Assembly (NCBI GenBank): GCA_003165795.1
Contig: PMWW01000179.1
Location: forward strand, 25,619-89,618
Length of the DNA: 64,000 bases
Source: Acidobacteriaceae bacterium
Lineage (GTDB): Bacteria > Acidobacteriota > Terriglobia > Terriglobales > Acidobacteriaceae
Direction of reading: 5' to 3'
This document shows, piece after piece, positions 3,246 through 29,116 of the stretch. The notes under the pieces were generated by a model that saw only the letters and a list, made by a program, of their open reading frames with translations, was not told the origin of the DNA and did no database searches. Within the stretch, counting starts at the first letter, position 1. Each line of letters begins with the position of its first letter. The translations under genes were made by a program, and so were the position numbers.

Positions 3246-4637
3246 ATGGTCAGCCCCAGCCATCGCCGCCAGAACATCGCCCTTATCGTTGCCGCCATTG
3301 CTGCGTTGGCCGCCTTGTTTTGCTCACGGATGAGCGGCCCATCCTCCGCCCTGATTTTCGTCGCTTTGCGCTGGATCACGCTTGCCGCGCTGGTGGTCTA
3401 TGGGTGTTTGCGGCGGACGCTCACCGCGTGGATCTTCATCGCCATGCTGCTGGGCGCCGAGATTGGGCATGACTTGCCGAACCTCGCTACCCATCTGCGC
3501 GTGCTGGCGCTTATCTTCCTGCGGCTGATTAAGGCAATCATTGCACCGCTGCTGTTCGGCACCTTAGTAGTCGGGATCGCCGGGCACTCCAACCTGCGGC
3601 AGGTGGGAAGGCTCGGACTGCGCTCCATCATCTTCTTTGAGATCGTCACCACAATCGCAATTTTTCTCGGGCTCGGGGCCATCAACTTGAGCAAGGCCGG
3701 GGTCGGCGTTCACCTGCCTGCCACGACAAGCGCCGACACCTCGTCGGTCAGCAAACTCAGCGGTGAGGACACCATCCTGCACATTTTTCCCGAGAACATT
3801 GCCAAGTCAGTGGCTGACGGCGCAGTGCTGCAAGTGGTCATCTTCAGCCTCATCTTCGCCATTGCTCTGGCGATGATCAGCGAGCCTAAGCGCCGCCCCA
3901 TGCTGGCATTCTGTGAGAGCTTGAGCGAAACCATGTTCAAGTTCACCAACCTGGTGATGTATATGGCTCCGCTCGGCGTAGGCGCCGCCGTGGCCTACAC
4001 TGTGGGACATACGGGGATCGCCGTCCTCGGCAGCCTACTGAAGCTATTGCTCACGCTGTATGCCACGCTGATCGTCTTCATCCTCGCCGTCTTGTTGCCC
4101 ATTGCTTTGATTTTCCGCGTGCCGCTGCGGGCCTTTATCAAAGCAGTCGCCGAGCCCGTCACGATTGCGTTCGGCACCGCCAGCTCGGAAGCAGCGCTTC
4201 CCCGCGCCATGGAGGCAATGGAGGCCATCGGCGTCCCGCGGCAAATTGTGGCCTTTGTCATTCCCACCGGTTACAGCTTCAACCTCACGGGCAGCTCGCT
4301 CTACTTGTCGGTAGCGGCAATTTTTGTGGCGCAAGTCTCGGGCATCCATCTATCGTTGGGACAGCAGCTCATGATCATGCTGACGCTGATGCTCACCAGT
4401 AAAGGCGTGGCCGGCGTCTCGCGAGCGGCATTGGTGATTCTGCTGGCGACGGCCAGCTCAACCGGGCTTCCCACCGAGCCGGTCTTTCTGCTGCTCGGAG
4501 TCGATCAACTGCTGGATATGGGACGCACCGCGGTCAATGTACTGGGCAATTGCCTGGCAGCGGTGGTGATGGCCAAGTGGGAGGGCGAATTCAACGCAGA
4601 GACACCTTCCCAGGTTGTCGCCGACGCGCTACAGTAG
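3246..4637 (+). CDS. Dicarboxylate/amino acid:cation symporter (DAACS family)
   Basis: Inner-membrane secondary transporter of the SDF/GltP-DctA family (463 residues), probably driving uptake of a dicarboxylate or acidic amino acid with Na+ or H+. Several hydrophobic helices precede the family core: a serine-rich hairpin loop (GTASSEAALPRAMEAME), the PTGYSFNLTGSSLY motif of TM7 and the second hairpin GVAGVSRAALVILLATA. LLGVDQLLDMGRTAVNVLGN near the end matches the substrate-binding TM8. The N terminus (about 60 residues) is longer than in GltP and may hold extra helices. It starts 3 bp after dapD, so it may be cotranscribed. Substrate is unknown. Confidence 0.9.
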   Translation: MVSPSHRRQNIALIVAAIAALAALFCSRMSGPSSALIFVALRWITLAALVVYGCLRRTLTAWIFIAMLLGAEIGHDLPNLATHLRVLALIFLRLIKAIIAPLLFGTLVVGIAGHSNLRQVGRLGLRSIIFFEIVTTIAIFLGLGAINLSKAGVGVHLPATTSADTSSVSKLSGEDTILHIFPENIAKSVADGAVLQVVIFSLIFAIALAMISEPKRRPMLAFCESLSETMFKFTNLVMYMAPLGVGAAVAYTVGHTGIAVLGSLLKLLLTLYATLIVFILAVLLPIALIFRVPLRAFIKAVAEPVTIAFGTASSEAALPRAMEAMEAIGVPRQIVAFVIPTGYSFNLTGSSLYLSVAAIFVAQVSGIHLSLGQQLMIMLTLMLTSKGVAGVSRAALVILLATASSTGLPTEPVFLLLGVDQLLDMGRTAVNVLGNCLAAVVMAKWEGEFNAETPSQVVADALQ

Positions 4638-5427: not shown

Positions 5428-5530
5428 TGATTAAGTCACAGCAATTCCCTCAGCGGCTGAAGCCGAAGTGATTCTGCGGCATTACGGACGGCCTCAAAGG
5501 CCGTCCCCTTCAAGAAATCACACTTAATCA
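5428..5530. repeat. MITE-like element with nested REP hairpins
   Basis: Located between convergent genes. It is bounded by inverted copies TGATTAAGT (5428-5436) and ACTTAATCA (5522-5530); similarity extends outward on both sides. Inside are CGGCT-GA-AGCCG (5454-5465) and a nine-pair hairpin GGACGGCCT-CAA-AGGCCGTCC (5486-5506). It could also serve as a bidirectional transcription stop, though no T-run is obvious. Confidence 0.6.
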
Positions 5531-5538
5531 AAGTTTCC

Positions 5539-6216
5539 TTAGCTCTGGCTGGCCCGTAGCGGAATCGCGTTTTTCGCCTGCCGGATTTCCCGATGCCTCC
5601 GCCGGAAGTGCGCCACGGCGCGCTCGCCCCATATCTTCACGAAGTAGTAGTTCAAGCCCGCCCCGATCACTGAACTGACGAGCGGGATCAGTCGCGCCGT
5701 CCACTTCTCTACAATCTCCGCGCTGGCGCTGACCGCAATGCGCTGAATGACGCGCGGGACAAACTTCGACACGAACTGCTTCTCCAGTAATTCGCGGCTG
5801 ATATCGACCCCGGCGGCGCTGGCAGCCGCCACCCACAGCTCGGCTTCCTCCTGCTCGGTGTTGTACGGAAAGCCATAAAGCAGGCTGAGCTTTTGAATCA
5901 TACGCAGGGTAATTCCCGCCAGTATCCCAAGGTCGGGCAGCATGGTGAACAGCCCGCCCAGTCCAAGTCCCGCACCTTCGGCGGCGGCCATGCGCATGTG
6001 GGCGCGAATGGTGTCTTCGGCGATGCTATCGAGAATCTCGGGATTGACCGAATACACGCCGTCATAGGTGAGCGCGGGAAGGTGATAGGCCATCCGCAGA
6101 TGGTCGAGATAGTTCTTGGGATCGACTTTAATGGTGTCGTAGGCCTTCAGGAATGCGCTTCGGATGGCGCCTTCCAGCCGCCGCCGGAGCCATGATTTCC
6201 GTTCGTCATTTCGCAT
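5539..6216 (-). CDS. EcsC-family protein
   Basis: A 225-residue protein resembling the EcsC family (PF12787), whose molecular role is poorly defined. Visible features are the glycine-rich amphipathic stretch AAAEGAGLGLGGLFTMLPDLG, the following ITLRMIQKLSLLYGFPY, and a second hydrophobic stretch LIPLVSSVIGAGLNYYFV, typical of the family. The start is the ATG at 6216, preceded by GGGAGAG at a good distance; the frame opens further upstream without family similarity. It points away from the RNase J gene, sharing a short divergent promoter region of about 95 bp. Confidence 0.82.
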   Translation of the reverse strand: MRNDERKSWLRRRLEGAIRSAFLKAYDTIKVDPKNYLDHLRMAYHLPALTYDGVYSVNPEILDSIAEDTIRAHMRMAAAEGAGLGLGGLFTMLPDLGILAGITLRMIQKLSLLYGFPYNTEQEEAELWVAAASAAGVDISRELLEKQFVSKFVPRVIQRIAVSASAEIVEKWTARLIPLVSSVIGAGLNYYFVKIWGERAVAHFRRRHREIRQAKNAIPLRASQS

Positions 6217-6310: not shown

Positions 6311-7984
6311 ATGCCAATAGGAAAGCTACAGGTTGTACCTCTCGGTGGGCTCGGCGAATTCGGCATGAACTGCATGGCCATTCGCTGGGGGAATGACATC
6401 ATCGTCATCGATGCCGGACTCATGTTCCCCGAGGCCGAACTGCTCGGCGTGGATATCGTAGTCCCCGACCTCACCTACTTGATCGAGAACCGGGCCCATG
6501 TGCGGGCCGTGGTGCTGACCCATGGCCACGAAGACCACATCGGAGCGCTGCCCTGGCTGCTTTCCGAGCTGAACGTGCCGGTGTATGGCACCGAATTCAC
6601 ACTGGCTTACGTGGAAGGCAAGCTGGAAGAGCATGGGCTGCTGGACAATGCGGTGCTCAACGAGATCAAGCCTGGCGAACGCTTCAAGATCGGCCCGTTC
6701 ACCATCAATCCCATCCATGTGACCCACAGCCTGGTGGATTGCGTGGCACTGGCCATCCACACGCCGCTGGGCACTCTGATTCACACCGGCGACTTCAAGG
6801 TCGATCCCACGCCCACTGACAACCGTCTCTTCGATCTGCACGCTTTTGCGGAGTACGGCAAAGAAGGCGTCCTGGCGCTGTTTCAGGATTCGACCAACGT
6901 GGAGCGCAAGGGCTACACTCCCAGCGAACGCGCGGTCCGCGCGCGCTTTCAGGAAATCTTCTCCCGCGCCGAGCGCCGCCTGTTCATCACCTGCTTCTCA
7001 TCATCGATCCACCGCATCAAGCTGACCATCGATCAGGCTTTTGAGAATGGCCGCAAGGTTTCGCTGGTCGGACGCTCGATGATGGAGTCCGCTGAGATCG
7101 CCCAGGATCTGGGTTACCTTGAGATTCCCGACGGGCTGCTCATTCATCCGGCGCAGATTCGCGACTTCGCGCCGGAAAAGGTTTGCGTGCTGATCAGCGG
7201 CACTCAGGGCGAGCCGATGTCGGCTTTGTCGCGCGCTGCGGTGGACAATCACAAACACGCGCGCATTCAGCCGGGCGACACGGTGGTGCTTTCGTCGCGA
7301 ATTATTCCGGGCAACGAGAAGGCCATCTATCGCGTGGTCGATCACCTTTTCCGTCGCGATGCCCACGTTATCTATGACGACGGTTCGTCACCGCCGGTAC
7401 ACGTCAGCGGACATGCCAGCCAGGAAGAGTTGAAGCTCATCATCAACCTGGTCAAGCCGCAATATTTCATCCCGATCCACGGCGAATACCGTCAGCTCAA
7501 GTTGCACGCCGAAATGGCGGGAGCGATGCACAGCTCGGTCGGGAAAGTAATCATGATCGAGAGCGGCGACATCCTGGAGTTCGACGAAATGGGCGCCCGC
7601 AAGGCGGGAAAGATCAATGTCGGCCGCGTCTGCATCGATTCCAACTCGATGGGCGACGTAGTGGAGGACCTGGTGATCCGCGATCGCCGCCACCTTAGCG
7701 AAGACGGCATCGTGCTGCCCATCATCGCCATCAACAAGCTGACCGGAAAAGTGGAAAGTTCTCCCGAGATCGTAATGCGGGGCTTCGGAGCCAGCATGAG
7801 CGAGGAGGACGGCTTCATGGACCAGGCGCGGCGTACCGTAATGAACACGCTGGAATCGTCGAGTGACGAAGAGAAGGGCGATTACGGCATGATCAAAGAA
7901 AAGATTCGCCAGGACCTAAAGCGCTTCATCGTGAAGAACACTTCGCGCCGTCCGCTGATCATGCCGGTGATATTGGAAGTGTAG
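6311..7984 (+). CDS. rnj: Ribonuclease J
   Basis: Metallo-beta-lactamase/beta-CASP ribonuclease for mRNA decay and rRNA maturation; family members have endo- and 5'-exonuclease activity. The 557-residue protein carries the zinc motif HGHEDH (71-76), an Asp in HTGDFKVDPTP, the beta-CASP region with VGRSMMESAEIAQDLGY and a late His in PIHGEYRQLKLHAEMA. Length matches the family (about 555). An alternative TTG two codons upstream (6305) is possible. No strong ribosome-binding site is visible. Confidence 0.95.
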   Translation: MPIGKLQVVPLGGLGEFGMNCMAIRWGNDIIVIDAGLMFPEAELLGVDIVVPDLTYLIENRAHVRAVVLTHGHEDHIGALPWLLSELNVPVYGTEFTLAYVEGKLEEHGLLDNAVLNEIKPGERFKIGPFTINPIHVTHSLVDCVALAIHTPLGTLIHTGDFKVDPTPTDNRLFDLHAFAEYGKEGVLALFQDSTNVERKGYTPSERAVRARFQEIFSRAERRLFITCFSSSIHRIKLTIDQAFENGRKVSLVGRSMMESAEIAQDLGYLEIPDGLLIHPAQIRDFAPEKVCVLISGTQGEPMSALSRAAVDNHKHARIQPGDTVVLSSRIIPGNEKAIYRVVDHLFRRDAHVIYDDGSSPPVHVSGHASQEELKLIINLVKPQYFIPIHGEYRQLKLHAEMAGAMHSSVGKVIMIESGDILEFDEMGARKAGKINVGRVCIDSNSMGDVVEDLVIRDRRHLSEDGIVLPIIAINKLTGKVESSPEIVMRGFGASMSEEDGFMDQARRTVMNTLESSSDEEKGDYGMIKEKIRQDLKRFIVKNTSRRPLIMPVILEV

Positions 7985-17465: not shown

Positions 17466-17633
17466 CTATTCTTGCGTCTCTGGCTCCGGCTGAACGGCCT
17501 TGAACCCATACGGACAATGCCGGCATCCTGACTGGCAACAGTATCCGCGACCCTGCAAATAGATCGCGGTGAACACCCTGAACCCGTCTTCCATGTAATA
17601 GTCGATACCGTCGACCAGGTCATCTGGAATCAT
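17466..17633 (-). CDS. DUF5522 small cysteine-rich protein
   Basis: A 55-residue protein matching the small DUF5522 family. The signature runs YYMEDGFRVFTAIYLQGRGYC, then CQSGCRHCPYGF, with four cysteines and a His that look like a metal-binding knuckle. The ATG at 17633 overlaps the TGA of lhr in an ATGA arrangement, so it is probably translated by coupling from the lhr message. No function is established. Because the lhr stop sits on its start codon, a role connected with the helicase or simply shared expression is plausible, but inferred. Confidence 0.82.
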   Translation of the reverse strand: MIPDDLVDGIDYYMEDGFRVFTAIYLQGRGYCCQSGCRHCPYGFKAVQPEPETQE

Positions 17634-20600
17634 TGCGCGGCAGCCTCGGACGGATGCTCCGTCCAATCTTCTCTTGCTTGAGTGGAGGTTAAGCGCTCCG
17701 CGGCTGGGAAGGGGATTCCGTCGCGGAAGCTGACGTACTTGCCAGAAATGGCCGCGACGCGCTCGCCCGGAACAATAATGCCCACGAGGTTGAGCGGATC
17801 GGCAGCCGAGATTGTCACGGTATCGCCAGCTACGGCGAGGTTGCGCATCGCACGTAATGACTCTACGGCCTCGGGCAACGCGAACTGCTCACCCAGAAAT
17901 CCGCTGACAAACCGGCCGCCGCGCACCTCGCCGCGATCTTCGAGACGGCGGAAGGCGATCAGCAACTCACGCCACTTGGGCATATTGGATTCGCGCGCCA
18001 ACATCTCGCGAAAGACCACGCCGTAACGCCGCAGCAGCATCCAGCAAGTGGCCTCGGCAACCTTGCTGCGATCGCATCCCTCCGCGGGATAGAGCAGCGA
18101 CCAGCGTCCCGGCGTATGTCGAGGTCTGGGCGCCTTGCCCGAGCCCGGTCCCAAGCGGCGTTTGGGGTTGATCAGCGAGCGCAGATTGTCGAAGCCGTCG
18201 GCCGTCACCATTCCCGCGGCAACCAACTCCCAGAGCGCAGTTTCGATCTCTGCTTTCAGCTTGCCGGTGCCGCGTACGATGTCGGCAAAGAACGACGCGC
18301 CCCGGCGCCGCAAGTATTCCAGCACGGCTCGCGCGCCCTCGCTGAGCACCCGCTCAAAGCCTTGCTCATCCTCGAGGCGCGGCTGCATCCAGTCGCACTC
18401 TTCGCGGACAAAGAACGTGATGGGCGCAACGCTGGTGGGAACAACCCGGCGCCGGCCTTCGTGCGAATCCTCCAACGTAGCCGGATGCGGCGACAGCCTT
18501 CCCCAGCCCACGGCTCCCGTCAGGCAAAGCTGGTCGAGTGCGGCCGGATCGTAGTTGTTGATCCGCGAAGCCAGCACCTGTTTCTCCCAGGCATTGGCAG
18601 GAATTTCGAAACCTTGCAACTGTCGCACGGCTTCCAGCAGGCCGCGCTCGCCACTCAATTGCGACTGCGGAGCTACGTGCTGCCAGCGCAGCAGCCAGCG
18701 CATGAACTGCGCCGCCGTGACCGGCTCGACCTGCTTGCGCAGCGTCGCAACCGTGAGGTGGTGAATGCGCGCCAGCAAACGCCGCTCGCACCACTCGACC
18801 GCATCTAAACCGCCCGGTAGTCGTTCTTCTGGGTCCGGGTGCCCTGTCCAAGCTTCCTTTGCTTGGGCGGAGACGTTCGCCTGAAATCCCGTAAAATTTC
18901 CGCGCAAGATCGAGCCCGACGCCTCCATTCGCAGGAGAGCTTTTCCCACGTCGGCGGCAGGCAATCCCAACCAGTATGACAGCGCAGCCGCGGTCACCGG
19001 ACCACAGTGCATCATCCAACCCGTCACCATGGCGAGCACGGCATCGTCGCGCGAACCGGTGTTGGACGGCAGCTCGGGCGGCGTTACCTCAAACTGTCCC
19101 TCGGGAAAGATCAGTGCAAAATCTTTCGCCCGCTCGGAGGCGACGAAATAGTGGCGCTCGTTGGTGCCGCCGGCTAAAGCCGGCTCTGAAGTAGAAAGTT
19201 GGCTAGACGCAGCGCTGAAGCGCTGCTCTACCCGTACGTATGACCCACCCAAAACGGAACCAGAGGGCTGTTCCGGCTCGCTGCTCGTCGCTAGGTCCAA
19301 TTGCACGCTGGCCCGCACCGCACGCCAGCCTTCCATTAGTTCGGCGACAAAGGGAAACCAGCTTGCGATCGCCTGCTGCCAGTCGGCATCGGCAATTTCC
19401 TCGGGAAGCGCAACCAGGGTTTGCAGCGTATCGTGCAACTCGTCGCTGTCGCGAACATCGGGTCGCGCCTCTTCGCGCACGCGAGCAATGGCTTGCTGGT
19501 CCAGCCTGCCAACCTCATTGAGCACCGCCTCGGGCAACATGCGGCGCATTTGGACGGCGCGGGCCCGGCGCTCTTCCAAGGGAGCGTCATCGAGAAAGGC
19601 ATACGGATTCGCGTTCAGGATCTCGTGGGAGAACTGTGATGGTACCGGCGTATCCACCGCAAGACAGCGAATTGCGCCGCTGCCGATTCCCTCTAGAACG
19701 CGCCGCAGTCCGTCGATGTCCATCGCCTCGGTCAGGACGTCTTTCATCACCTCCTGTACCAGGGGGTGATCGGGAATCTTGATGTCGCCCTCAATGTTTT
19801 CCTGGCACGCGGCCACGTCAGGAAAGACCGACGCCAGAAGGTCATCGCTGCGGATACGCTGGATCTGCGGCGGAACTTTCTTGCCACCCATGAAGCGCAG
19901 CAGCGCCAGCGACCGGTTGGCATCCCATCGCCAGCGGGTGGCGAAGATGGGTGATGCCAGCGCCGCCTGTTCCAGGATTGCCTGGACAGTTTCTGTCTGC
20001 AGATAATGAAAGACGTCGCCGAGCGGGAAACTGTGCTGCTCGCTGAGGGCAATGTTCAGTCCGTTGTCAGTTGCCGCAGCCTGCAACTCAAAATTGAAGG
20101 AGCGGCAGAATCGCTTGCGCAGCGCCAGCCCCCAAGCCTTGTTCACGCGACCGCCGAAGGGCGCGTGGATGATGAGCTGCATCCCGCCGCCTTCGTCGAA
20201 AAAGCGCTCGGCGATGATGGTCTGCGTCGTGGGCACATCGCCCAGCACGGCACGCCCGGTCACCACATACTCGATTGCCTGCTCGGCGCCGGCATCGTCC
20301 AGCCCGCATTCCGCTTTCAGCCAGGCAACCGCGTTCTGCACTTCGGGACTGGATTCGAGGCCGCGCAAACGGGCCTTGGGCCGGGCGGGAGGCGTGCCGC
20401 CGCTTGAAGCCGGCACAGAAAACGGCAGAGATGCCTTTGACGCGGAGCTAGAGCTTCGCTCTACCGCAACCTCGGCGCTAACTTCAGGATTCGCCGGCAC
20501 CGGCAACGGCGCGGTGTTGGGCAGCAGCTCGCTGATGCGCTGCCGCACCTCTGCCACGTGCAGCGACAGCTCGTCGGTACGTGCCGGAGCTTCGCCGCGC

Positions 20601-22300
20601 CAGAATGGAATCGTCGGCGGCGCGCCGTGAGCATCTTCTACCACCAAGCGTCCGGAGTTGGATTCGACCCGCCGGATGCGCCACGATGTGTTGCCCAGCA
20701 GCATAATGTCGCCGGCATTGCTCTCAACCGCAAAGTCTTCATCGACCGTGCCGATGACGATCTCTTCCGGCTGCGCCAGTACGGTAAATAGCGCGGTCTC
20801 GGGAATTGCGCCGCCGCTGGTGATGGCCGCCAGCCGCGCTCCGCGCCGTGCCCGCAGGCGCCGGTTCACCATGTCGCGAAACAGATACGCCCCATAGCGT
20901 CCGCGCTTGGCAGCAATCCCCTGCGAAAGCATTTCCAAAATGCTGTCATACTCCTCGCGCTTCAGATCGCGATACGGATAGGCGCGGCGCACGCACTCGA
21001 ACAGCGCGTCTTCATCCCAATCCTCGCAGCTGCACATGGCAACGATCTGCTGCGCCAGAATGTCGAGCGGAGAAGCGGGAATCTGGATGCGATCAAGATC
21101 TCCCTGGCGAATGGCCCGCACGGCGGCCGCGCACTCCACCAGGTCATCGCGCGTGGTGGCGAAGAGACGTCCCTTCGGGACCGCTCCCCGCCAGTGACCG
21201 GAGCGTCCCACGCGCTGCAGAGTAACCGCAATGGAGCGCGGGGAGTTGATCTGGCAGACCAGGTCGACTGTACCAATATCAATTCCCAACTCAAGCGACG
21301 CCGTCGCTACCAACAAGCGAATCTCGCCATTCTTCAGCTTGCGTTCGGCGTTCAGCCGTAGCTTGCGGGCCAAGCTGCCATGATGCGCCGCAACCAAGTC
21401 CTCGCCGATGCGTTCGCCTAAATGCAGCGTCACCCGCTCCGCCAGTCGCCGCGTGTTGACGAAGACCAGAGTCGAGCGATGCTGCATTGCTAATTCGGCA
21501 ATGCGATCGTAGATCTCTCCCCACATCTCGTTGGTAGCGATGGGGCCGAGTTCAGAGGCCGGCACTTCCACCGCCAGATCAAGCTCGCGCCGATGACCGA
21601 TATTCACCACCGCCGGAGCTGGACGTCCCGCGCCAGTGAGGAAGTGAGCGATCTCCTGGATCGGCTTTTGCGTGGCCGACAGTCCGATGCGCGTTGGGCG
21701 ATTGGCTAACAGGTCCAGGCGCTCCAGCGAGAGCGTGAGATGCGCGCCGCGCTTGTCGTCGGCGACAGCGTGGATCTCGTCGACGATCACCGTCTCAACA
21801 TGGCTCAGGATGGCACGGCTGCTATTGGCGGTCAGCAGGATGTAAAGCGACTCAGGCGTGGTGACCAGAATGTGCGGCGGACGCTTCAGCATCGCGCGCC
21901 GCTCTTTCATTAGAGTATCGCCGGTGCGTACAGCAGTACGAATCTCGGGCATCAACATGCCGCGCTCGGCAGCCAGCGCCAGAATCTCGCCCAGCGGGCT
22001 GTCGAGGTTCTTCTGAATATCGTTGCCTAGCGCCTTCAGCGGCGACACGTAGAGGACTTCGGTGCAGTCGCGCAGCGAGCCGTCCAGCGCTTTGCGAACG
22101 AGACGGTCAATGCAAATGAGGAATGCAGCAAGTGTTTTACCCGAACCAGTGGGAGCCGAGATCAGCGTAGTGCGACCCGCCAGAATCTCAGGCCAGCCTT
22201 GCTCCTGCGGCTCGGTCGGCGTGCCAAAGCGTCCGATGAACCATTCGCCAACCAGCGGATGCGCCCAGGCCAGTGCGACGGGAATCTCCCCAACAGGCAT
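17630..22300 (-). CDS. lhr: Lhr-type ATP-dependent helicase (full length)
   Basis: A 1556-residue superfamily 2 helicase, close to E. coli Lhr (1538). Walker A is SAPTGSGKT (48-56), the DEIH box is at 174-177, SAT appears in LSATQKP and motif VI is QRVGRSGH. A winged-helix and Lhr-specific beta domain follow, and a long C-terminal half corresponds to the Lhr-CTD region. Family members are 3'-5' translocases linked to DNA repair. Two linkers (about residues 612-636 and 1023-1045) are encoded by REP-like palindromes inserted in frame. The downstream DUF5522 gene overlaps its stop. Confidence 0.93.
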   Translation of the reverse strand: MPVGEIPVALAWAHPLVGEWFIGRFGTPTEPQEQGWPEILAGRTTLISAPTGSGKTLAAFLICIDRLVRKALDGSLRDCTEVLYVSPLKALGNDIQKNLDSPLGEILALAAERGMLMPEIRTAVRTGDTLMKERRAMLKRPPHILVTTPESLYILLTANSSRAILSHVETVIVDEIHAVADDKRGAHLTLSLERLDLLANRPTRIGLSATQKPIQEIAHFLTGAGRPAPAVVNIGHRRELDLAVEVPASELGPIATNEMWGEIYDRIAELAMQHRSTLVFVNTRRLAERVTLHLGERIGEDLVAAHHGSLARKLRLNAERKLKNGEIRLLVATASLELGIDIGTVDLVCQINSPRSIAVTLQRVGRSGHWRGAVPKGRLFATTRDDLVECAAAVRAIRQGDLDRIQIPASPLDILAQQIVAMCSCEDWDEDALFECVRRAYPYRDLKREEYDSILEMLSQGIAAKRGRYGAYLFRDMVNRRLRARRGARLAAITSGGAIPETALFTVLAQPEEIVIGTVDEDFAVESNAGDIMLLGNTSWRIRRVESNSGRLVVEDAHGAPPTIPFWRGEAPARTDELSLHVAEVRQRISELLPNTAPLPVPANPEVSAEVAVERSSSSASKASLPFSVPASSGGTPPARPKARLRGLESSPEVQNAVAWLKAECGLDDAGAEQAIEYVVTGRAVLGDVPTTQTIIAERFFDEGGGMQLIIHAPFGGRVNKAWGLALRKRFCRSFNFELQAAATDNGLNIALSEQHSFPLGDVFHYLQTETVQAILEQAALASPIFATRWRWDANRSLALLRFMGGKKVPPQIQRIRSDDLLASVFPDVAACQENIEGDIKIPDHPLVQEVMKDVLTEAMDIDGLRRVLEGIGSGAIRCLAVDTPVPSQFSHEILNANPYAFLDDAPLEERRARAVQMRRMLPEAVLNEVGRLDQQAIARVREEARPDVRDSDELHDTLQTLVALPEEIADADWQQAIASWFPFVAELMEGWRAVRASVQLDLATSSEPEQPSGSVLGGSYVRVEQRFSAASSQLSTSEPALAGGTNERHYFVASERAKDFALIFPEGQFEVTPPELPSNTGSRDDAVLAMVTGWMMHCGPVTAAALSYWLGLPAADVGKALLRMEASGSILRGNFTGFQANVSAQAKEAWTGHPDPEERLPGGLDAVEWCERRLLARIHHLTVATLRKQVEPVTAAQFMRWLLRWQHVAPQSQLSGERGLLEAVRQLQGFEIPANAWEKQVLASRINNYDPAALDQLCLTGAVGWGRLSPHPATLEDSHEGRRRVVPTSVAPITFFVREECDWMQPRLEDEQGFERVLSEGARAVLEYLRRRGASFFADIVRGTGKLKAEIETALWELVAAGMVTADGFDNLRSLINPKRRLGPGSGKAPRPRHTPGRWSLLYPAEGCDRSKVAEATCWMLLRRYGVVFREMLARESNMPKWRELLIAFRRLEDRGEVRGGRFVSGFLGEQFALPEAVESLRAMRNLAVAGDTVTISAADPLNLVGIIVPGERVAAISGKYVSFRDGIPFPAAERLTSTQAREDWTEHPSEAAAQ
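19168..19233. repeat. REP-like palindrome pair inside lhr
   Basis: Two hairpins lie in frame within the coding region: GCCGGCT-AA-AGCCGGC (19168-19183) and CAGCGCT-GA-AGCGCTG (19210-19225), followed by CTCTACCC. They encode a low-complexity linker (RVEQRFSAASSQLSTSEPALAG). The same pattern occurs in noncoding spacers of this window. Confidence 0.75.
20396..20465. repeat. Second REP-like element inside lhr
   Basis: GCCGCCGCTTGAAGCCGGC (20396-20414) and the imperfect hairpin GCGGAGCT-AG-AGCTTCGC (20442-20459) followed by TCTACC. The element encodes the Ser/Ala/Pro-rich linker VERSSSSASKASLPFSVPAS between the helicase core and the C-terminal half. Confidence 0.65.
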
Positions 22301-22383: not shown

Positions 22384-22638
22384 TCAAGAATGGAAGTCAT
22401 TCCGGCGCCGGTAGGTGAGTACCGTGATCCCGATCGACAGCAACATGGGAGGGACCATCAGGACCAGGATTCCGCTGCGCAGCGCCTGAATGAAGCGCGC
22501 CGTTGAGGCGGCGGCCTGAGTGTAGCAAAGTGGGCAGCCTTGGGCGAGAAGGGTATGTGGGCCGAACAGCAATACCAGCGCGGCCATGGCGAGAACACAC
22601 GGTCGCAGCCGCCGCGGAATTTCACGCTTACTTCTCAT
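22384..22638 (-). CDS. Small exported membrane protein with CPLCY motif, end of cox operon
   Basis: An 84-residue protein with a basic N terminus and signal-like helix (to about residue 33). The conserved-looking GCPLCYTQAAAST (34-46), holding a CxxC pair, follows. A C-terminal helix (about 56-75) ends in the basic tail RRRN. Its ATG overlaps the stop of the subunit IV gene (ATGA), making it the last cistron of the oxidase operon. The CxxC would lie on the periplasmic side. A role in oxidase assembly or copper/redox handling is inferred from position only; I know no assigned function. Confidence 0.7.
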   Translation of the reverse strand: MRSKREIPRRLRPCVLAMAALVLLFGPHTLLAQGCPLCYTQAAASTARFIQALRSGILVLMVPPMLLSIGITVLTYRRRNDFHS

Positions 22639-23024: not shown

Positions 23025-23654
23025 CTACTTCGATACATTCAGCAGATAAACCAACGGCACGACGAACATCCAGACCAGATTCACGAAGTGCCAATAGAGT
23101 CCGGTGATTTCGACGTCGCCGGCATCGCACCGTCCGCCTCTGCAGCGTAGCCCGACCACGATGAGAACAACGATTCCTGCCATGACGTGGATCAGGTGCA
23201 ATCCCGTAATGGTGAAGAATGACGCGCCAAACAACGCGTTGCCCCACGGGTTACGGGACAGCCGCACTCCTTCATCGATCAAGTCCATCCACTCGTGAAC
23301 ATGCAAGAGCACGAAAATTGACCCTCCGGCCGCCGTGAGCATGGTCCATCGATAAGCCGCGTCCTGGTCTCCCATCTTGGCGGCGCGAACTCCCAGGGCC
23401 ATGGTCAAGCTGCTGGTGACGAGGATGAAGGTCATCACCATAGTGTTAACAACCGTGGGGAAAAACTTGAACGGCGTGGGCCAGTTGAGGGAGCCGTTGC
23501 GTAAGAAACCGTATGCTACGAGACACGTGGCGAAGGTGGCAGCGTCGGCGATAAGGAAGAGCCACATCGCCAATTTCTTGCTTGGCATGGCAAACGGCGA
23601 CGATCTCTCCGGCACAGAGAGATGCGTTCCCATCGTCAAGTCCGATTGGCTCAC
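23025..23654 (-). CDS. coxC: Cytochrome c oxidase subunit III (second copy)
   Basis: A 209-residue protein with about five helices: KKLAMWLFLIADAATFATCL, MVMTFILVTSSLTMALG, TMLTAAGGSIFVLLHVHEW, GASFFTITGLHLIHVMAG and WHFVNLVWMFVVPLVYLL. The GLHLIHV and YWHFVNLVW motifs are those of the heme-copper oxidase subunit III family. The start is GTG at 23654 behind a strong GGGAGG. It lies 22 bp after a related but more divergent subunit III-like gene, in the inner-membrane terminal oxidase operon. Confidence 0.9.
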   Translation of the reverse strand: MSQSDLTMGTHLSVPERSSPFAMPSKKLAMWLFLIADAATFATCLVAYGFLRNGSLNWPTPFKFFPTVVNTMVMTFILVTSSLTMALGVRAAKMGDQDAAYRWTMLTAAGGSIFVLLHVHEWMDLIDEGVRLSRNPWGNALFGASFFTITGLHLIHVMAGIVVLIVVGLRCRGGRCDAGDVEITGLYWHFVNLVWMFVVPLVYLLNVSK

Positions 23655-23676: not shown

Positions 23677-24351
23677 TCAGATTCGCGTCCATAGTAAGAA
23701 CAACAAATAAACCCAAAGTAAGTCCATAAAATGCCAATAGTAGGAAACCGTACTTACAGTGCTCAGTCGTAGAGTGGGAACAGGCCTGCTGAAACGCCAG
23801 ACTACTACCATCAACCCCGCAAGTCCCCCCAGCACATGAATAGCGTGAATCGCGGTAAACAGATAAAAGAACGAGCTACTGGGGCTGGTCGCCAGGTATA
23901 GCCCCTCCGACCTCAGCTTGAGCCAGGCCGCATATTGGCCGACGACGAACAACCAGCCGAGTCCCAGAGTCACATACAGCCAAAGCAACGGAATCGCGCA
24001 GCGCGGCTGCAATCCGCGAGCCAGCCATCGAACCCGTTGGCGTGCAAGCTCCAGGGTGACGCTGCTGGTCAGCAATATAGCGGTGTTGAGGTAGAGCACC
24101 GAGGGCAAGGCAAAATGCCGCCAGTCGGTCGACGATCCCTGGCGAACCACCATGGCGCTGGTGAAAGCAGCGAAGGTCATGGTAATTGCCGCCAGCCCGA
24201 CCCAGATGCCGGTTCTCGAAGCTGGCGAGCGGTCCTCGACGGCCCGCCAGCTTCCGCTTTCTGATGTCACATTGCCGTGTCCGCCGAAGTCAGCTTGAGC
24301 TGGGTATCGAGCGGAGTCGGGTTGCTGGCGTTCGTGAACCGTGGTCGTCAT
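23677..24351 (-). CDS. Cytochrome c oxidase subunit III-like protein (first copy)
   Basis: A 224-residue membrane protein with a polar N terminus of about 45 residues, then five helices. AIHAIHVLGGLAGLMVVVW and YYWHFMDLLWVYLLFLLW are subunit III hallmarks. It aligns in general plan with the following gene but differs in sequence. The ATG at 24351 gives a conventional start 46 bp after coxA; a GTG at 24411 would overlap the end of coxA and cannot be excluded. It may be a diverged paralogue that pairs with the other subunit III. Confidence 0.82.
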   Translation of the reverse strand: MTTTVHERQQPDSARYPAQADFGGHGNVTSESGSWRAVEDRSPASRTGIWVGLAAITMTFAAFTSAMVVRQGSSTDWRHFALPSVLYLNTAILLTSSVTLELARQRVRWLARGLQPRCAIPLLWLYVTLGLGWLFVVGQYAAWLKLRSEGLYLATSPSSSFFYLFTAIHAIHVLGGLAGLMVVVWRFSRPVPTLRLSTVSTVSYYWHFMDLLWVYLLFLLWTRI

Positions 24352-24397
24352 AAATGAGCTACTGCCTTCGCCGCCGGCCCCAGGTAATCCGGAGCAC

Positions 24398-26182
24398 TTA
24401 CTTTTCGCCACGAACCGAGTTGATCGACGCCGGCGAATCCTGCATCACGTAATCGTTGGTCGCACCTTCGATGTCGTATTGATACGGATCGTGGTACACG
24501 ACGGGGAGCTTGCCTGCGAAATTATCAAACGGCGGAGGCGACGGAATCGACCACTCCAACGACGTGCCTTCCCAGGGATTCTGCGGCGCCAGTTCGCCCC
24601 AGAAGCGGCTATGGATCAGGTTGTACAGAAAGATCAGTTGCGCCGCACCTGTGATCAGAGCAGCGATAGTGATGAATTTGTGCACCGGCATCAGCGGCGC
24701 CATGAAGTCGTCGACGAAAGCCTGGTAGCGGCGCACATTTCCTGCCATTCCCAGATAATGAAATGGCATGAAGATGCAATAGGCGCCTACAAAGGTAAAC
24801 CAGAAATGGACCTTCCCTAATGTCTCGTTCATCATCCTTCCGGTTACCTTGGGAAACCAAAAGTAGGTTCCGGCAAAGATTCCGAACAGTGCGGCAACTG
24901 CCATCACCAAATGGAAGTGGCCGACGACGAAGTAGGTGGCATGCAGCATGATATCGAGCGAGGGCTGCGCCAAGAAAAAGCCAGTGATACCGCCGCTGAC
25001 GAACATGGAGATGAAGCCCAGAGCGAAGAGCGAAGCGGTGTTAATACGCAGCTTCGAACCGTAGAGACTGCCGATCCAGATCAGCACCATGATCGTGGAC
25101 GGAATAGTAATCGCCAGCGTGGGCAAGGAAAACGCGATTGACGAGTACGGATTCATCCCGCTGACGAACATGTGATGTCCATAAACCATGTAGCTGAGAA
25201 ACGCGATTGCGACCATCGAATAGATAATCGCTTTGTGGCTGAGCAGCGGCCGGCGCATGTTGGTGATCAAGACGTGAGAGACAATGCCCATGGCGGGCAC
25301 GATCGCAATGTAAACCTCCGGGTGCCCGAAGAACCAGAACAGGTGCTGCCACAGTAGGGTCGATCCGCCCGCGTGCGGCTGCAACTGATCGTTGACGACC
25401 AGGTTGGAGGGTACGAAGAAGCTGGTTCCGGCGACGTGGTCCAGGACCAGCAGGATGCAAGCCGGCATCAAGACCGCGAACGCTGTCAGGCTGATGCAGG
25501 CAGTGATAAACCATGCCCACACGGTGAGTGGAAGGCGCATGAGGCCCATGCCCTGGCAGCGCATATCCAGCGTGGCCGAGATGAAATTCAACGTGCCTAA
25601 CAACTGCCCCACGCAGAAGATGGCAATCGAAACCGCCCACAGGACCTGGCCGGTCCCTTGTCCCGGCCCGGCAACCTCGCCCAGCGCACTTAGTGGGGCG
25701 TACGCCGTCCAACCGGATAGAGGTGGCCCCTGGGGCACGAAAAACGCGGCGATGGCCACCAGGAATGCGCCGAAGGTCACCCAGAACGACAGCATGTTGA
25801 GGCGCGGAAACGGCATGTCCTCGGCGCCCACTTGGATGGGCAGGAAATAATTGCCGAAACCCGCCAGCGGCGCGGTGGTCAGCACGAAGAAGACCATGAT
25901 GGTCCCATGCATGGTCATCAGTTGCAGGTAGTACTCTGGAGTGAGGACACCACCCGGCGCGCCGTTCTTGGAGAGTAGCTGCATTCCAGGAATAGCTGCG
26001 GCCGGCCACGCCAGGTGGATCCTCATGATCCAGGAAAGCACCATCCCGATAAATACCGCCGCCAACGCGAGGCCATAATACTGCTCGCCGATGACCTTGT
26101 GGTCAGTGCTGAAGATGTACTTCCGGATGAAGCCGGTCGGCGGAACGCGGTGGCGAGCCGCGTGGGCGGACTTATCGTGCAT
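24398..26182 (-). CDS. coxA: Cytochrome c oxidase subunit I
   Basis: Catalytic heme-copper subunit (594 residues, about twelve helices) that reduces O2 to water and pumps protons. Ligand motifs are complete: TMHGTIM (low-spin heme His), FFGHPEVY (CuB His with the cross-linked Tyr and the D-channel Glu), YGHHMFVSGM (two CuB His) and VGHFHLV (heme a3 and heme a His). GHPEVY points to the A1 type. The ATG at 26182 has GAGGG six bases upstream. Gene order coxB-coxA-III-III-IV is that of a caa3/aa3-type operon. Confidence 0.97.
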   Translation of the reverse strand: MHDKSAHAARHRVPPTGFIRKYIFSTDHKVIGEQYYGLALAAVFIGMVLSWIMRIHLAWPAAAIPGMQLLSKNGAPGGVLTPEYYLQLMTMHGTIMVFFVLTTAPLAGFGNYFLPIQVGAEDMPFPRLNMLSFWVTFGAFLVAIAAFFVPQGPPLSGWTAYAPLSALGEVAGPGQGTGQVLWAVSIAIFCVGQLLGTLNFISATLDMRCQGMGLMRLPLTVWAWFITACISLTAFAVLMPACILLVLDHVAGTSFFVPSNLVVNDQLQPHAGGSTLLWQHLFWFFGHPEVYIAIVPAMGIVSHVLITNMRRPLLSHKAIIYSMVAIAFLSYMVYGHHMFVSGMNPYSSIAFSLPTLAITIPSTIMVLIWIGSLYGSKLRINTASLFALGFISMFVSGGITGFFLAQPSLDIMLHATYFVVGHFHLVMAVAALFGIFAGTYFWFPKVTGRMMNETLGKVHFWFTFVGAYCIFMPFHYLGMAGNVRRYQAFVDDFMAPLMPVHKFITIAALITGAAQLIFLYNLIHSRFWGELAPQNPWEGTSLEWSIPSPPPFDNFAGKLPVVYHDPYQYDIEGATNDYVMQDSPASINSVRGEK

Positions 26183-26233: not shown

Positions 26234-27046
26234 CTACTGCAAGGCTGCCTTCTGCTTCAACCAGTTGTCGAAGTCCGATTGCGACATGACTTTGAGATAT
26301 GCCTTCATGTTGTAATGACCCAGACCGCAAAGCTGCGTGCACAAGATCTCGTACTTGCCCGGCTTGGTCGCGGTGAAGTGTACCGCGAGATCCAGCCCCG
26401 GTACGAAATCCTGCTGAATACGCAGCTCGCGTATAAAAAACGAATGGCCCACATCCTTGGAGTGCATCAGCAGATGGATTTCGCGGTTGACCGGCACCGC
26501 CAATTCAGCCGTCACAATGTCATCTTTGGAATCGGCGTCATGCGTCGTATCCAGACCGAAGAAGTTCAGGTTGCCTTCGTTGACCATCTCGGGATGAATG
26601 GGACCAAACTTTCCATCCGCTCCCGGATAACGAAAATAAAATGCGAACTGGCCGGCCTGCGCCTGGATTGGCAGTGCGTTCGCGGATGGGGGTGTGAAGT
26701 AGATGGCCGCCCACGCCTTGGCTCCAAAAATTCCCAGCGCCATCACCTCGATTCCCACGACGAGGACGGCCGCGGCGACCAGCCCGCGGGCTCCGCCGGG
26801 AAAGTGCTGGATCTTTTCGTTCTTAGGTCGGTTCGAGAATCTCCAGACCAACCAGGCCAGAATGAGCTGTGCAGCCAGAAATGCAACTCCGGCCTCGGCC
26901 ATGGTCTCCGACATCTGTTCGTCGATCAATCTCCCGTGCGTCGAGATGTCCGCCGGAGGCTCCCACGTGTGCAGGATGATGGGCATAGCCGAAGCTAGCG
27001 CAATCACGATCAGCGTCGCTGCAAACACTTTGCCCATATTCCTCAC
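26234..27046 (-). CDS. coxB: Cytochrome c oxidase subunit II
   Basis: Membrane-anchored CuA subunit of 270 residues receiving electrons from cytochrome c. Two N-terminal helices (about 7-25 and 52-70, plus a hydrophobic stretch near 90-110) precede the cupredoxin domain. CuA ligands are visible: His in HSKDVGHSFF, then CTQLCGLGHYNMKAYL with the two Cys, His and Met. No C-terminal heme c domain is fused, so a separate cytochrome c must serve it. Start is GTG at 27046 with AGGA seven bases upstream; an ATG at 27037 is an alternative. Confidence 0.94.
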   Translation of the reverse strand: MRNMGKVFAATLIVIALASAMPIILHTWEPPADISTHGRLIDEQMSETMAEAGVAFLAAQLILAWLVWRFSNRPKNEKIQHFPGGARGLVAAAVLVVGIEVMALGIFGAKAWAAIYFTPPSANALPIQAQAGQFAFYFRYPGADGKFGPIHPEMVNEGNLNFFGLDTTHDADSKDDIVTAELAVPVNREIHLLMHSKDVGHSFFIRELRIQQDFVPGLDLAVHFTATKPGKYEILCTQLCGLGHYNMKAYLKVMSQSDFDNWLKQKAALQ

Positions 27047-27889: not shown

Positions 27890-29029
27890 TCACTTCAGCG
27901 CGATCACCAGTACGCGCCCGTCCGACTGAATATTCCCGCCGGTCGCGGTTCTGGCTGACGTGATCGGCTTCGATCGCGTCATGTATGACATCGCCTCCAC
28001 TTGTCCTGCCTGCTGCAGCGTTGCGCCGATGAAGTCGCGCTCGTTGTCGACCTCCTGATCAATCTTGTGCGTCATCGCATCCGGCGAGCGCTGGTCTCGT
28101 TCGATGCCGACGTCGTGCGTTCCCGCACCCACCCAGATAGGCCCATTCTGCGTCGCTGCGAACGGCGCATTCCAGATGCGGAAGTGATGCCGCTGCGCCG
28201 CCACCATGACCGCCTCGGCGCGCTGATAGCCAAAGTCCTGCGGCCTGCCGAACAGGTACAGCATGCTCATCGGCACCGAGACGTACACGTTTTTCTGCAG
28301 CGTCGCCAACAGCGCGCTGACTACCGCGTCTTTATTCGTCTTGTCCGCCGGAATCCAGGCTGCTGCCTTCAACGCATCCGTCACTTGCTGCTGGCTCCCG
28401 ACGATCACGAAGTTGACCAGGTCTCCGGGATTGCCTCCCTGCGCTTGATCGCTGACCCGATAGGGCAGCTTGGCGTTGAGGACGGCAAATAGCGGCTTGA
28501 AGTCATACATGCTCTGGCGAGCGGCCACTCCGCTGGCCGTCGCAGCATTAGTCGCGGTGCGGTCGATATGCACTTCATACTTGCCATCCGGCGTTTGCAT
28601 GGAATCGGTATTAATTCCCAGATAGAACCGGCCCGCGATCGGCGCTTGCACCGTTCCATCCGCGCCAATGAAGAACGGCGTCGCCGCGTCACTGTTGCCG
28701 ATTCGTCCCACCAATGCGCCGCGGCCAACGCTGGGCACCATCAGCGCACGCAGAGTGTCAACCCATCCGCGCGCTACGCCGTTCGCCGTCACGCCGGAGT
28801 TGTTGCCCATGTTGACGGTTCCTTCCGCGGTGATGTGCAGTTTGTCGCCGGCTTCGACATCCATACCCGTGTCAATCCACTTCTGACTACCGCTGACCGT
28901 GACGTTGAGCCTCGTACTGTTGGCCGTGCTGGCCCCCGTCAGCGGAGCGGCTGCCTCGGAATCGCCCGCACCGCGCAGCGGGAGAACAATAAGAACTACT
29001 GCAATCAGGGTTGCACGAGCAAACTTCAT
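27890..29029 (-). CDS. Exported protein: LecA-like lectin domain fused to LssY C-terminal-like domain
   Basis: The 379-residue protein has a signal peptide (MKFARATLIAVVLIVLPLRGAG), then a domain resembling the PA-IL/LecA galactose-binding fold (about 38-160: KWIDTGMDVEAGDKLHITAEG, GALVGRIGN, FFIGADG, GRFYLGIN). The C-terminal half resembles the LssY_C domain (PF14067): VYVSVPMSMLYLFGRPQDFGYQ, RHHFRIWNAPF, WVGAGTHDVGIERDQRS and THKIDQEVDNERDF. The ATG at 29029 has AGGGG five bases upstream. Surface or periplasmic carbohydrate-related work is a guess. It converges on kdsC. Confidence 0.7.
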   Translation of the reverse strand: MKFARATLIAVVLIVLPLRGAGDSEAAAPLTGASTANSTRLNVTVSGSQKWIDTGMDVEAGDKLHITAEGTVNMGNNSGVTANGVARGWVDTLRALMVPSVGRGALVGRIGNSDAATPFFIGADGTVQAPIAGRFYLGINTDSMQTPDGKYEVHIDRTATNAATASGVAARQSMYDFKPLFAVLNAKLPYRVSDQAQGGNPGDLVNFVIVGSQQQVTDALKAAAWIPADKTNKDAVVSALLATLQKNVYVSVPMSMLYLFGRPQDFGYQRAEAVMVAAQRHHFRIWNAPFAATQNGPIWVGAGTHDVGIERDQRSPDAMTHKIDQEVDNERDFIGATLQQAGQVEAMSYMTRSKPITSARTATGGNIQSDGRVLVIALK

Positions 29030-29116
29030 CGATCCCCTACTGCGCTCCTCACCGAGTATAACCACGTACTCGCCGCCAGGTTGCGAGAAGGCGACGGCGC
29101 AGTTTATTCGCTCCGT

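Follow-up and report, generated by a model that had tools for sequence, protein, structure and literature searches.

Which protein closes the cytochrome oxidase operon in this stretch of acidobacterial DNA, and what does it more probably do there? The supply of copper to both copper sites of family A oxidases is an open question beyond a few model bacteria, and a 2022 review, in the part drawn on here, describes the assembly proteins as diverse, expects more of them and treats the existence of different machineries as unsettled (PMC9145763). A sequence-only reading of the window, which is the whole analysed stretch of 64,000 nucleotides, had pointed to an 84-residue exported protein with a CxxC pair at the end of the operon and had considered copper delivery, redox or assembly work for it. 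The analysis presented here recommends this protein as a good candidate for a helper, or else a subunit, that has been missing from the picture of the oxidase copper sites. It is a single-gene and testable candidate, near-constant in one class of oxidases of the sampled Acidobacteriota genomes and missing from the sampled SCO-linked class.

The small gene and its operon

The open reading frame exists as proposed, and its strand, which had been left unnamed, is minus (Table 1). Its product of 84 aa reads MRSKREIPRR...LLAQGCPLCYTQAA...YRRRNDFHS. The claimed coupling to oxidase subunit IV stands in that the ATG of the small gene overlaps the stop of the preceding gene in a shared ATGA; the subunit IV match of this preceding gene is itself below the Pfam cut-off, yet its size and place agree with subunit IV. 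The signal peptide was assigned by sequence reading together with the first helix of an AlphaFold2 model, rather than by a signal-peptide program. This model (34 rows, mean pLDDT 73.8, pTM 0.42) consists of helices at residues 9–25, 36–45 and 47–83 only, and it tells little more than the primary structure.

Table 1. Features of the small gene and of its oxidase operon, with positions in the window.
Feature	Position	Strand	Basis
P0001, small membrane protein with CxxC (84 aa), encoded at the end of the oxidase operon	22384..22638	minus	ORF and family searches
Signal-peptide-like N-terminus, residues 1–32, ending LLA|Q	22543..22638	minus	basic start and hydrophobic core, by eye
CPLC motif, residues 35–38, C35 and C38 invariant	22525..22536	minus	alignment of members
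Putative single TM helix, about residues 55–76, then basic YRRRN tail	22411..22476	minus	sequence reading; model helix 47–83
Subunit IV-like protein, 121 aa	22635..23000	minus	PF03626, E 2e-4, 22 bits against a cut-off of 28.9 (below)
COX3-like protein b	23025..23654	minus	PF00510, above cut-off
COX3-like protein a	23677..24411	minus	PF00510, above cut-off
COX1, heme-copper oxidase subunit I	24398..26182	minus	PF00115, E 3e-127, above cut-off
COX2, CuA motif CTQLCGLGHYNM, without fused cytochrome c	26234..27046	minus	Pfam, above cut-off

Directly adjoining the operon on its downstream side, and on the same strand, is a large Lhr-type DEAD-box helicase gene (window 17630–22300). Beyond the start of the operon, a HAD-type hydrolase gene is followed by the gene of an LssY_C-domain protein (window 27893–29065, minus strand). 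The source genome has one convincing copy of the small gene; the second place found there (E 0.2) lies inside a long ORF.

Type-1 and type-2 members in the Acidobacteriota

The single sequence matched 45 of 396 Acidobacteriota genomes, the source genome counted (E ≤ 0.01). A profile of 26 rows, made from the part after the signal peptide, gave at least 90 places in at least 83 of the 396 genomes (E ≤ 0.001), and this count is a lower bound because at most 16 candidates were scored per genome. For the 89 places other than that of the window, flanks of about 6 kb in both directions were taken, as far as the contig reached. Two of the 90 places were left out, namely G159:C144 (L121), which has no CxxC, and G331:C33 (L111), where no ORF matches and the alignment reads through stops. 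The remaining 88 credible members of type 1, the window's included, belong to 82 genomes. All 88, and L032 as well (89 of 89 tallied), have the CxxC pair where it was claimed for the window protein, close behind the signal segment. CAMC is the commonest variant (46 members), followed by CTQC (11), and a Q stands within three residues before the CxxC in 88 of the 89; with few exceptions, the type-1 motif can be written as Q-x(0-1)-C-[ASTPV]-[MLQ]-C. The string GCPLCYTQAA, suggested earlier for searching, is local, and its CxxC core is what type 1 keeps. The mature part has 45% mean column identity, while the C-terminal tail varies in length and has only a few residues in many members. As read from the sequence, the make-up of type 1 would be a signal peptide, the CxxC, one TM helix and a basic tail.

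Presence in other oxidase operons, on which the sequence-only reading had made its proposal depend, was found, as COX genes lie nearby on the same strand for 87 of the 88 profile-found members. Six genomes (G084, G210, G147, G226, G323, and G389) carry a pair of members, and each member of a pair stands next to COX genes of its own. The sole unlinked member of the 88 (L061 5851–6156, G275:C22) adjoins the gene of a dehydrogenase, which by eye looks PQQ-type and has a cytochrome c domain. In L041, a DUF420 (CtaM-type) gene at 5441–5965 comes after the small gene; it represents a BLAST cluster found in 13 loci, with the L041 member as the one scanned.

The COX1 of the window matches 152 of the 396 genomes (E ≤ 1e-100), and 150 places were taken among the matches listed. 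A type-1 profile match lies within 9 kb at 77 of them. The other 73 places comprise 64 with a small CxxC-TM protein, designated here as type 2, three without it, and six (L134, L135, L139, L141, L153, and L191) where a contig edge comes before the expected place and which were excluded as uninformative. The 64 consist of 58 found inside the COX span by a detector (criteria: hydrophobic stretch, CxxC, TM segment, and early end), L140, whose copy about 1.8 kb past its last COX gene was counted as present, and five missed by the detector and added by eye (L181, with its frame broken there, L194, L200, L204, and L207). Two other detector matches were judged to be chance and left out: one in the plasmid stretch L128, inside the COX span and upstream of COX2, and one in L224, which lies in a long ORF on the opposite strand. 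Altogether, a small protein of one type or the other is present at 141 of the 144 window-like COX1 places with enough flank among the matches listed. It is missing from the operons L136, L137, and L138; the genome of L136 (G275) has the unlinked copy L061 elsewhere, and the genome of L138 (G376) has a second operon that does carry the small gene.

That the gene closes its operon is right for the operon type of the window; in the other type, the relative sits between COX4 and COX2, and COX1-COX3-COX4-small-COX2 is the commonest order, seen at most of the 64 places. The motif, again at most of them, has the form A|CPVC[YF]G. In profile-profile comparison (hhalign), the two types were aligned with a probability of 95.8%, E 7e-9 and a score of 40.5, against a score of at most 20.7 for 120 column-shuffled versions, and type 2 is therefore a subfamily related to type 1. 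Since type-2 members were recognised partly by their CxxC, cysteine invariance is clean for type 1 only. Two members located between COX3 and COX2 (L204 and L207) apparently have no signal peptide and start with MACPVC and MACAVC, respectively; these starts seem to lie near the same mature N-terminus and would fit a mature form beginning at the motif. In the type-2 operon L146 (about 3746–4100), and also in L155, L159, and L194, a further small hydrophobic ORF stands between COX4 and the CxxC protein; in L146 it reads ..FGGW......YGIWFWRKI..

The small CxxC gene is confirmed as a real gene and not a chance ORF, because it has one copy in the source genome and its matches, by single sequence and by profile, stand nearly all by oxidase genes. 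A chance ORF or a mis-annotated operon tail could be suspected for a short ORF in GC-rich DNA, but its probability is negligible, as conservation refutes it: profile matches in 83 of the 396 genomes share the same surroundings and the invariant motif, and the CxxC-TM detector gave outside the COX spans a single match in 700,695 bases, which is L140 just downstream of its COX operon.

SCO, Cox11 and other known families

The sequence-only reading recognised no characterised family, and no credible match to one was found in Pfam, NCBIfam or the PDB sequences. The Pfam and NCBIfam searches gave stray matches only, at E 0.003 or worse and to one or two members each, and the PDB sequences gave no match at E ≤ 0.01 (best E 0.017). 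Oxidase accessory proteins are known as a class, and a description of the small CxxC family was found neither in the literature searched nor in the part of PMC8552683 drawn on here.

Proteins of the SCO1/SenC family are also membrane-anchored, periplasmic, provided with a Cys pair and linked to oxidase operons. According to the part of the review cited (PMC9145763), they are built on the thioredoxin fold and carry CxxxC together with a distal His, whereas the small protein has CxxC, about 50 mature residues, a model of helices only and a place beside the other oxidase type; none of 24 type-1 or 26 type-2 members matched PF02630. Cox11/CtaG shares one TM helix, a periplasmic Cys motif and oxidase linkage with it, but has CxC and a larger periplasmic part and is nearly absent from the Acidobacteriota; no PF04442 match was obtained among the scanned members of both types. 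Subunit IV (COX4_pro, PF03626) and other small oxidase subunits are likewise small membrane proteins of the same operon. Unlike subunit IV, the small CxxC protein has a signal peptide and the CxxC, it is encoded by a separate gene adjoining COX4, and it gave no PF03626 match. A thioredoxin-like reductase (TlpA, ResA) is not indicated either by the length of 84 aa, by the search for thioredoxin-family matches, which gave none, or by the helical, low-information model. CtaM (DUF420) and Caa3_CtaG are oxidase-linked accessory membrane proteins with a partly unknown role. They are multi-TM proteins in the part of the review used (PMC9145763) and have no sequence match to the small protein, and the DUF420 gene of L041 stands separately from the small gene. 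Heme c attachment, as in a c-type cytochrome, was rejected, as there is no CxxCH: the residue after the CxxC is R, K, Y, Q, G, N, L or E in 89 of 89 type-1 members. A lipoprotein is not favoured, as the residues before the Cys resemble, by eye, signal peptidase I sites (AxA) and form no lipobox.

The source genome has two more COX operons, both with COX2 fused to cytochrome c and both without the small protein, and SCO adjoins one of them. The COX1 of this SCO-linked operon has matches in at least 236 of the 396 genomes (E ≤ 1e-150). Twenty such caa3-type places were hand-picked, spread among the matches listed, and 5 kb of flank in both directions was included as far as the contig reached. 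Fused cytochrome c and an SCO match (mostly CPMLC) were present at all 20, and the small protein was in the operon at none. Of the loci where every COX2 in view is unfused, 133 have the small protein and 10 of these 133 have SCO in the stretch, a number that may be an undercount, because the caa3 loci themselves supplied the SCO genes from which the SCO model was derived, and the flanks are unequal between the sets (the second COX1 set reaches only 1 kb upstream of COX1). Fourteen unfused-COX2 loci were counted as without the small protein: six cut off, one Sinorhizobium plasmid, three lacking it, and four later found positive. The CuA motif is present in the small-protein loci with COX2 in view; elsewhere COX2 is outside or cut by the stretch. 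A tie of the small protein to the E/Q switch in the CuA motif was rejected, as both letters occur among type-1 operons (E in 52, Q in 30).

Cox11 (PF04442) matches three of the 396 genomes, two of them above the cut-off, and none was found in the source genome. SCO (PF02630) was found at four places in the source genome. At G000:C63:72716-73132 (L122) there is a strong SCO-family match (E 1e-23) with no CxxxC or CxxC seen in frame. In 16 genomes picked for having the window-type COX1 and no caa3 COX1 match, the PF02630 cut-off is passed in 14 and a CxxxC SCO is seen in 10. The best SCO matches listed for G019, G206, and G234 are CxxC proteins without CxxxC, and no CxxxC was seen in frame in the SCO matches of G024, G050, and G088. 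As SCO is present in most of these 16 genomes, it could act in trans, and as it is not generally missing, a strict replacement of SCO is not supported as such. On a COX1 tree made with FastTree from 176 rows, the small protein is distributed along large clades and nine presence/absence changes are needed. This count precedes the by-eye additions and omits the cut-off rows, and FastTree issued a warning about long branches. The mutual exclusion of small protein and SCO follows oxidase clades and may therefore be inheritance, not replacement.

Proposed role and alternatives

The small protein is tentatively considered, with a chance a little short of even, a dedicated accessory protein of Acidobacteriota family A oxidases with unfused COX2, being exported, anchored and equipped with periplasmic thiols for copper-site maturation. 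It would be exported and have its signal peptide removed just before the CxxC pair, and one helix would keep it anchored, so that both thiols lie at the periplasmic face of the oxidase; under the positive-inside rule, the basic C-terminal tail would be inside and the CxxC would face the periplasm. The likeliest task of the thiols would be to bind Cu(I) or to provide reducing equivalents while a copper site matures, with CuA of subunit II as the best guess for the site. This is the task that SCO is expected to perform next to the fused (caa3-type) operons. Handling of copper or reduction of thiols is the best guess because the thiols would be located by the CuA subunit, the operons are mostly without SCO, and Cox11 is nearly absent. 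The genomic context thus agrees with the copper delivery, redox or assembly work proposed before, with SCO standing by the sampled operons that lack the protein; copper binding, for its part, is presumed. We also infer the topology, the thiol chemistry, CuA over CuB, and whether the association is transient or permanent. In the part of the review used, the Cys of CuA have to be reduced, and when copper is low, Sco plus another copper carrier are required; the same part counts against a dedicated factor, in that CuA can form without protein factors if Cys is reduced and copper is at hand (PMC9145763).

The small protein may also stay bound as an oxidase subunit, and its main rival role is that of a permanent structural subunit like subunit IV, in which the CxxC would be a stabilising disulfide or a structural metal site without any copper delivery. 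This is rather unlikely as an alternative, but both readings could be true. An overlapping and probably co-translated gene, the retention at 141 of 144 places, the two-member genomes in which each member has its own COX genes, and the resemblance of a tiny single-TM protein to known small subunits would all suit a subunit; on the other side, an invariant Cys pair near the mature N-terminus of a protein with 45% identity in its mature part looks chemical rather than a matter of packing, and the small protein is missing from 13 plasmid COX1 regions of other phyla. That the small protein stands in for Cox11 and serves CuB of subunit I is improbable. In its favour, Cox11 exceeds its cut-off in just two of the 396 genomes, and no small protein was found in the Pseudomonadota plasmid operons seen; Cox11 is also membrane-anchored, has a Cys motif and is reported, in the part of the review used, only from alpha-, beta-, and gamma-Proteobacteria and eukaryotes (PMC9145763). 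However, caa3-type operons of the same phylum need CuB too, yet the 20 sampled have no small protein, and in a phylum nearly without Cox11 something else must therefore serve CuB there. Very improbable is a role outside assembly, in which the protein would sense thiol redox state or regulate how the oxidase is turned over or synthesised, and to which the CxxC near the N-terminus, the membrane anchor and the variable length of the tail might point; the protein has no recognisable regulatory domain, and its tail is just a few residues in many members.

In its broadest form, the preferred accessory role would mean a separate route of copper-centre maturation for family A oxidases. In the Acidobacteriota, where Cox11 is all but missing, and perhaps in other phyla, unfused-COX2 oxidases would depend on the CxxC mini-protein in the way that caa3 oxidases depend on SCO; this wide form is unlikely, slightly more so than the structural subunit. 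About 150 otherwise unnamed proteins of the sample (88 of type 1, 64 type-2 places, and L032) would gain a context from the family. Outside the Acidobacteriota, the small-protein profile matched none of 13 plasmid COX1 regions (nine of Pseudomonadota, three of Bacteroidota, and one of Cyanobacteriota), and tblastn against the plasmid collection gave no match for one type-1 member and one stray match (E 4) for one type-2 member. QCAMC-type small proteins may occur in Bacteroidota; the three Bacteroidota plasmid COX1 regions showed no small CxxC protein and no CuA motif. Seven of the 13 regions have the order II-I-III-III-IV, according to annotation and CuA motif. These Pseudomonadota operons (L126, L127, and L253–L257), which we take to be of the coxMNOP type, resemble the window operon in gene order but differ in that no small CxxC gene was found in them, and such relatives of the oxidase encoded without the small gene in the plasmid regions seen count against the preferred accessory role. 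Subunit II of L126 and L253 is annotated only as a c-type cytochrome, but the CuA motif is present, and L254 has a second II-I pair ahead of II-I-III-III-IV. In L126, a Burkholderia plasmid operon, a high-potential iron-sulfur protein (HiPIP) gene is located at the place of the small gene (7007–7321).
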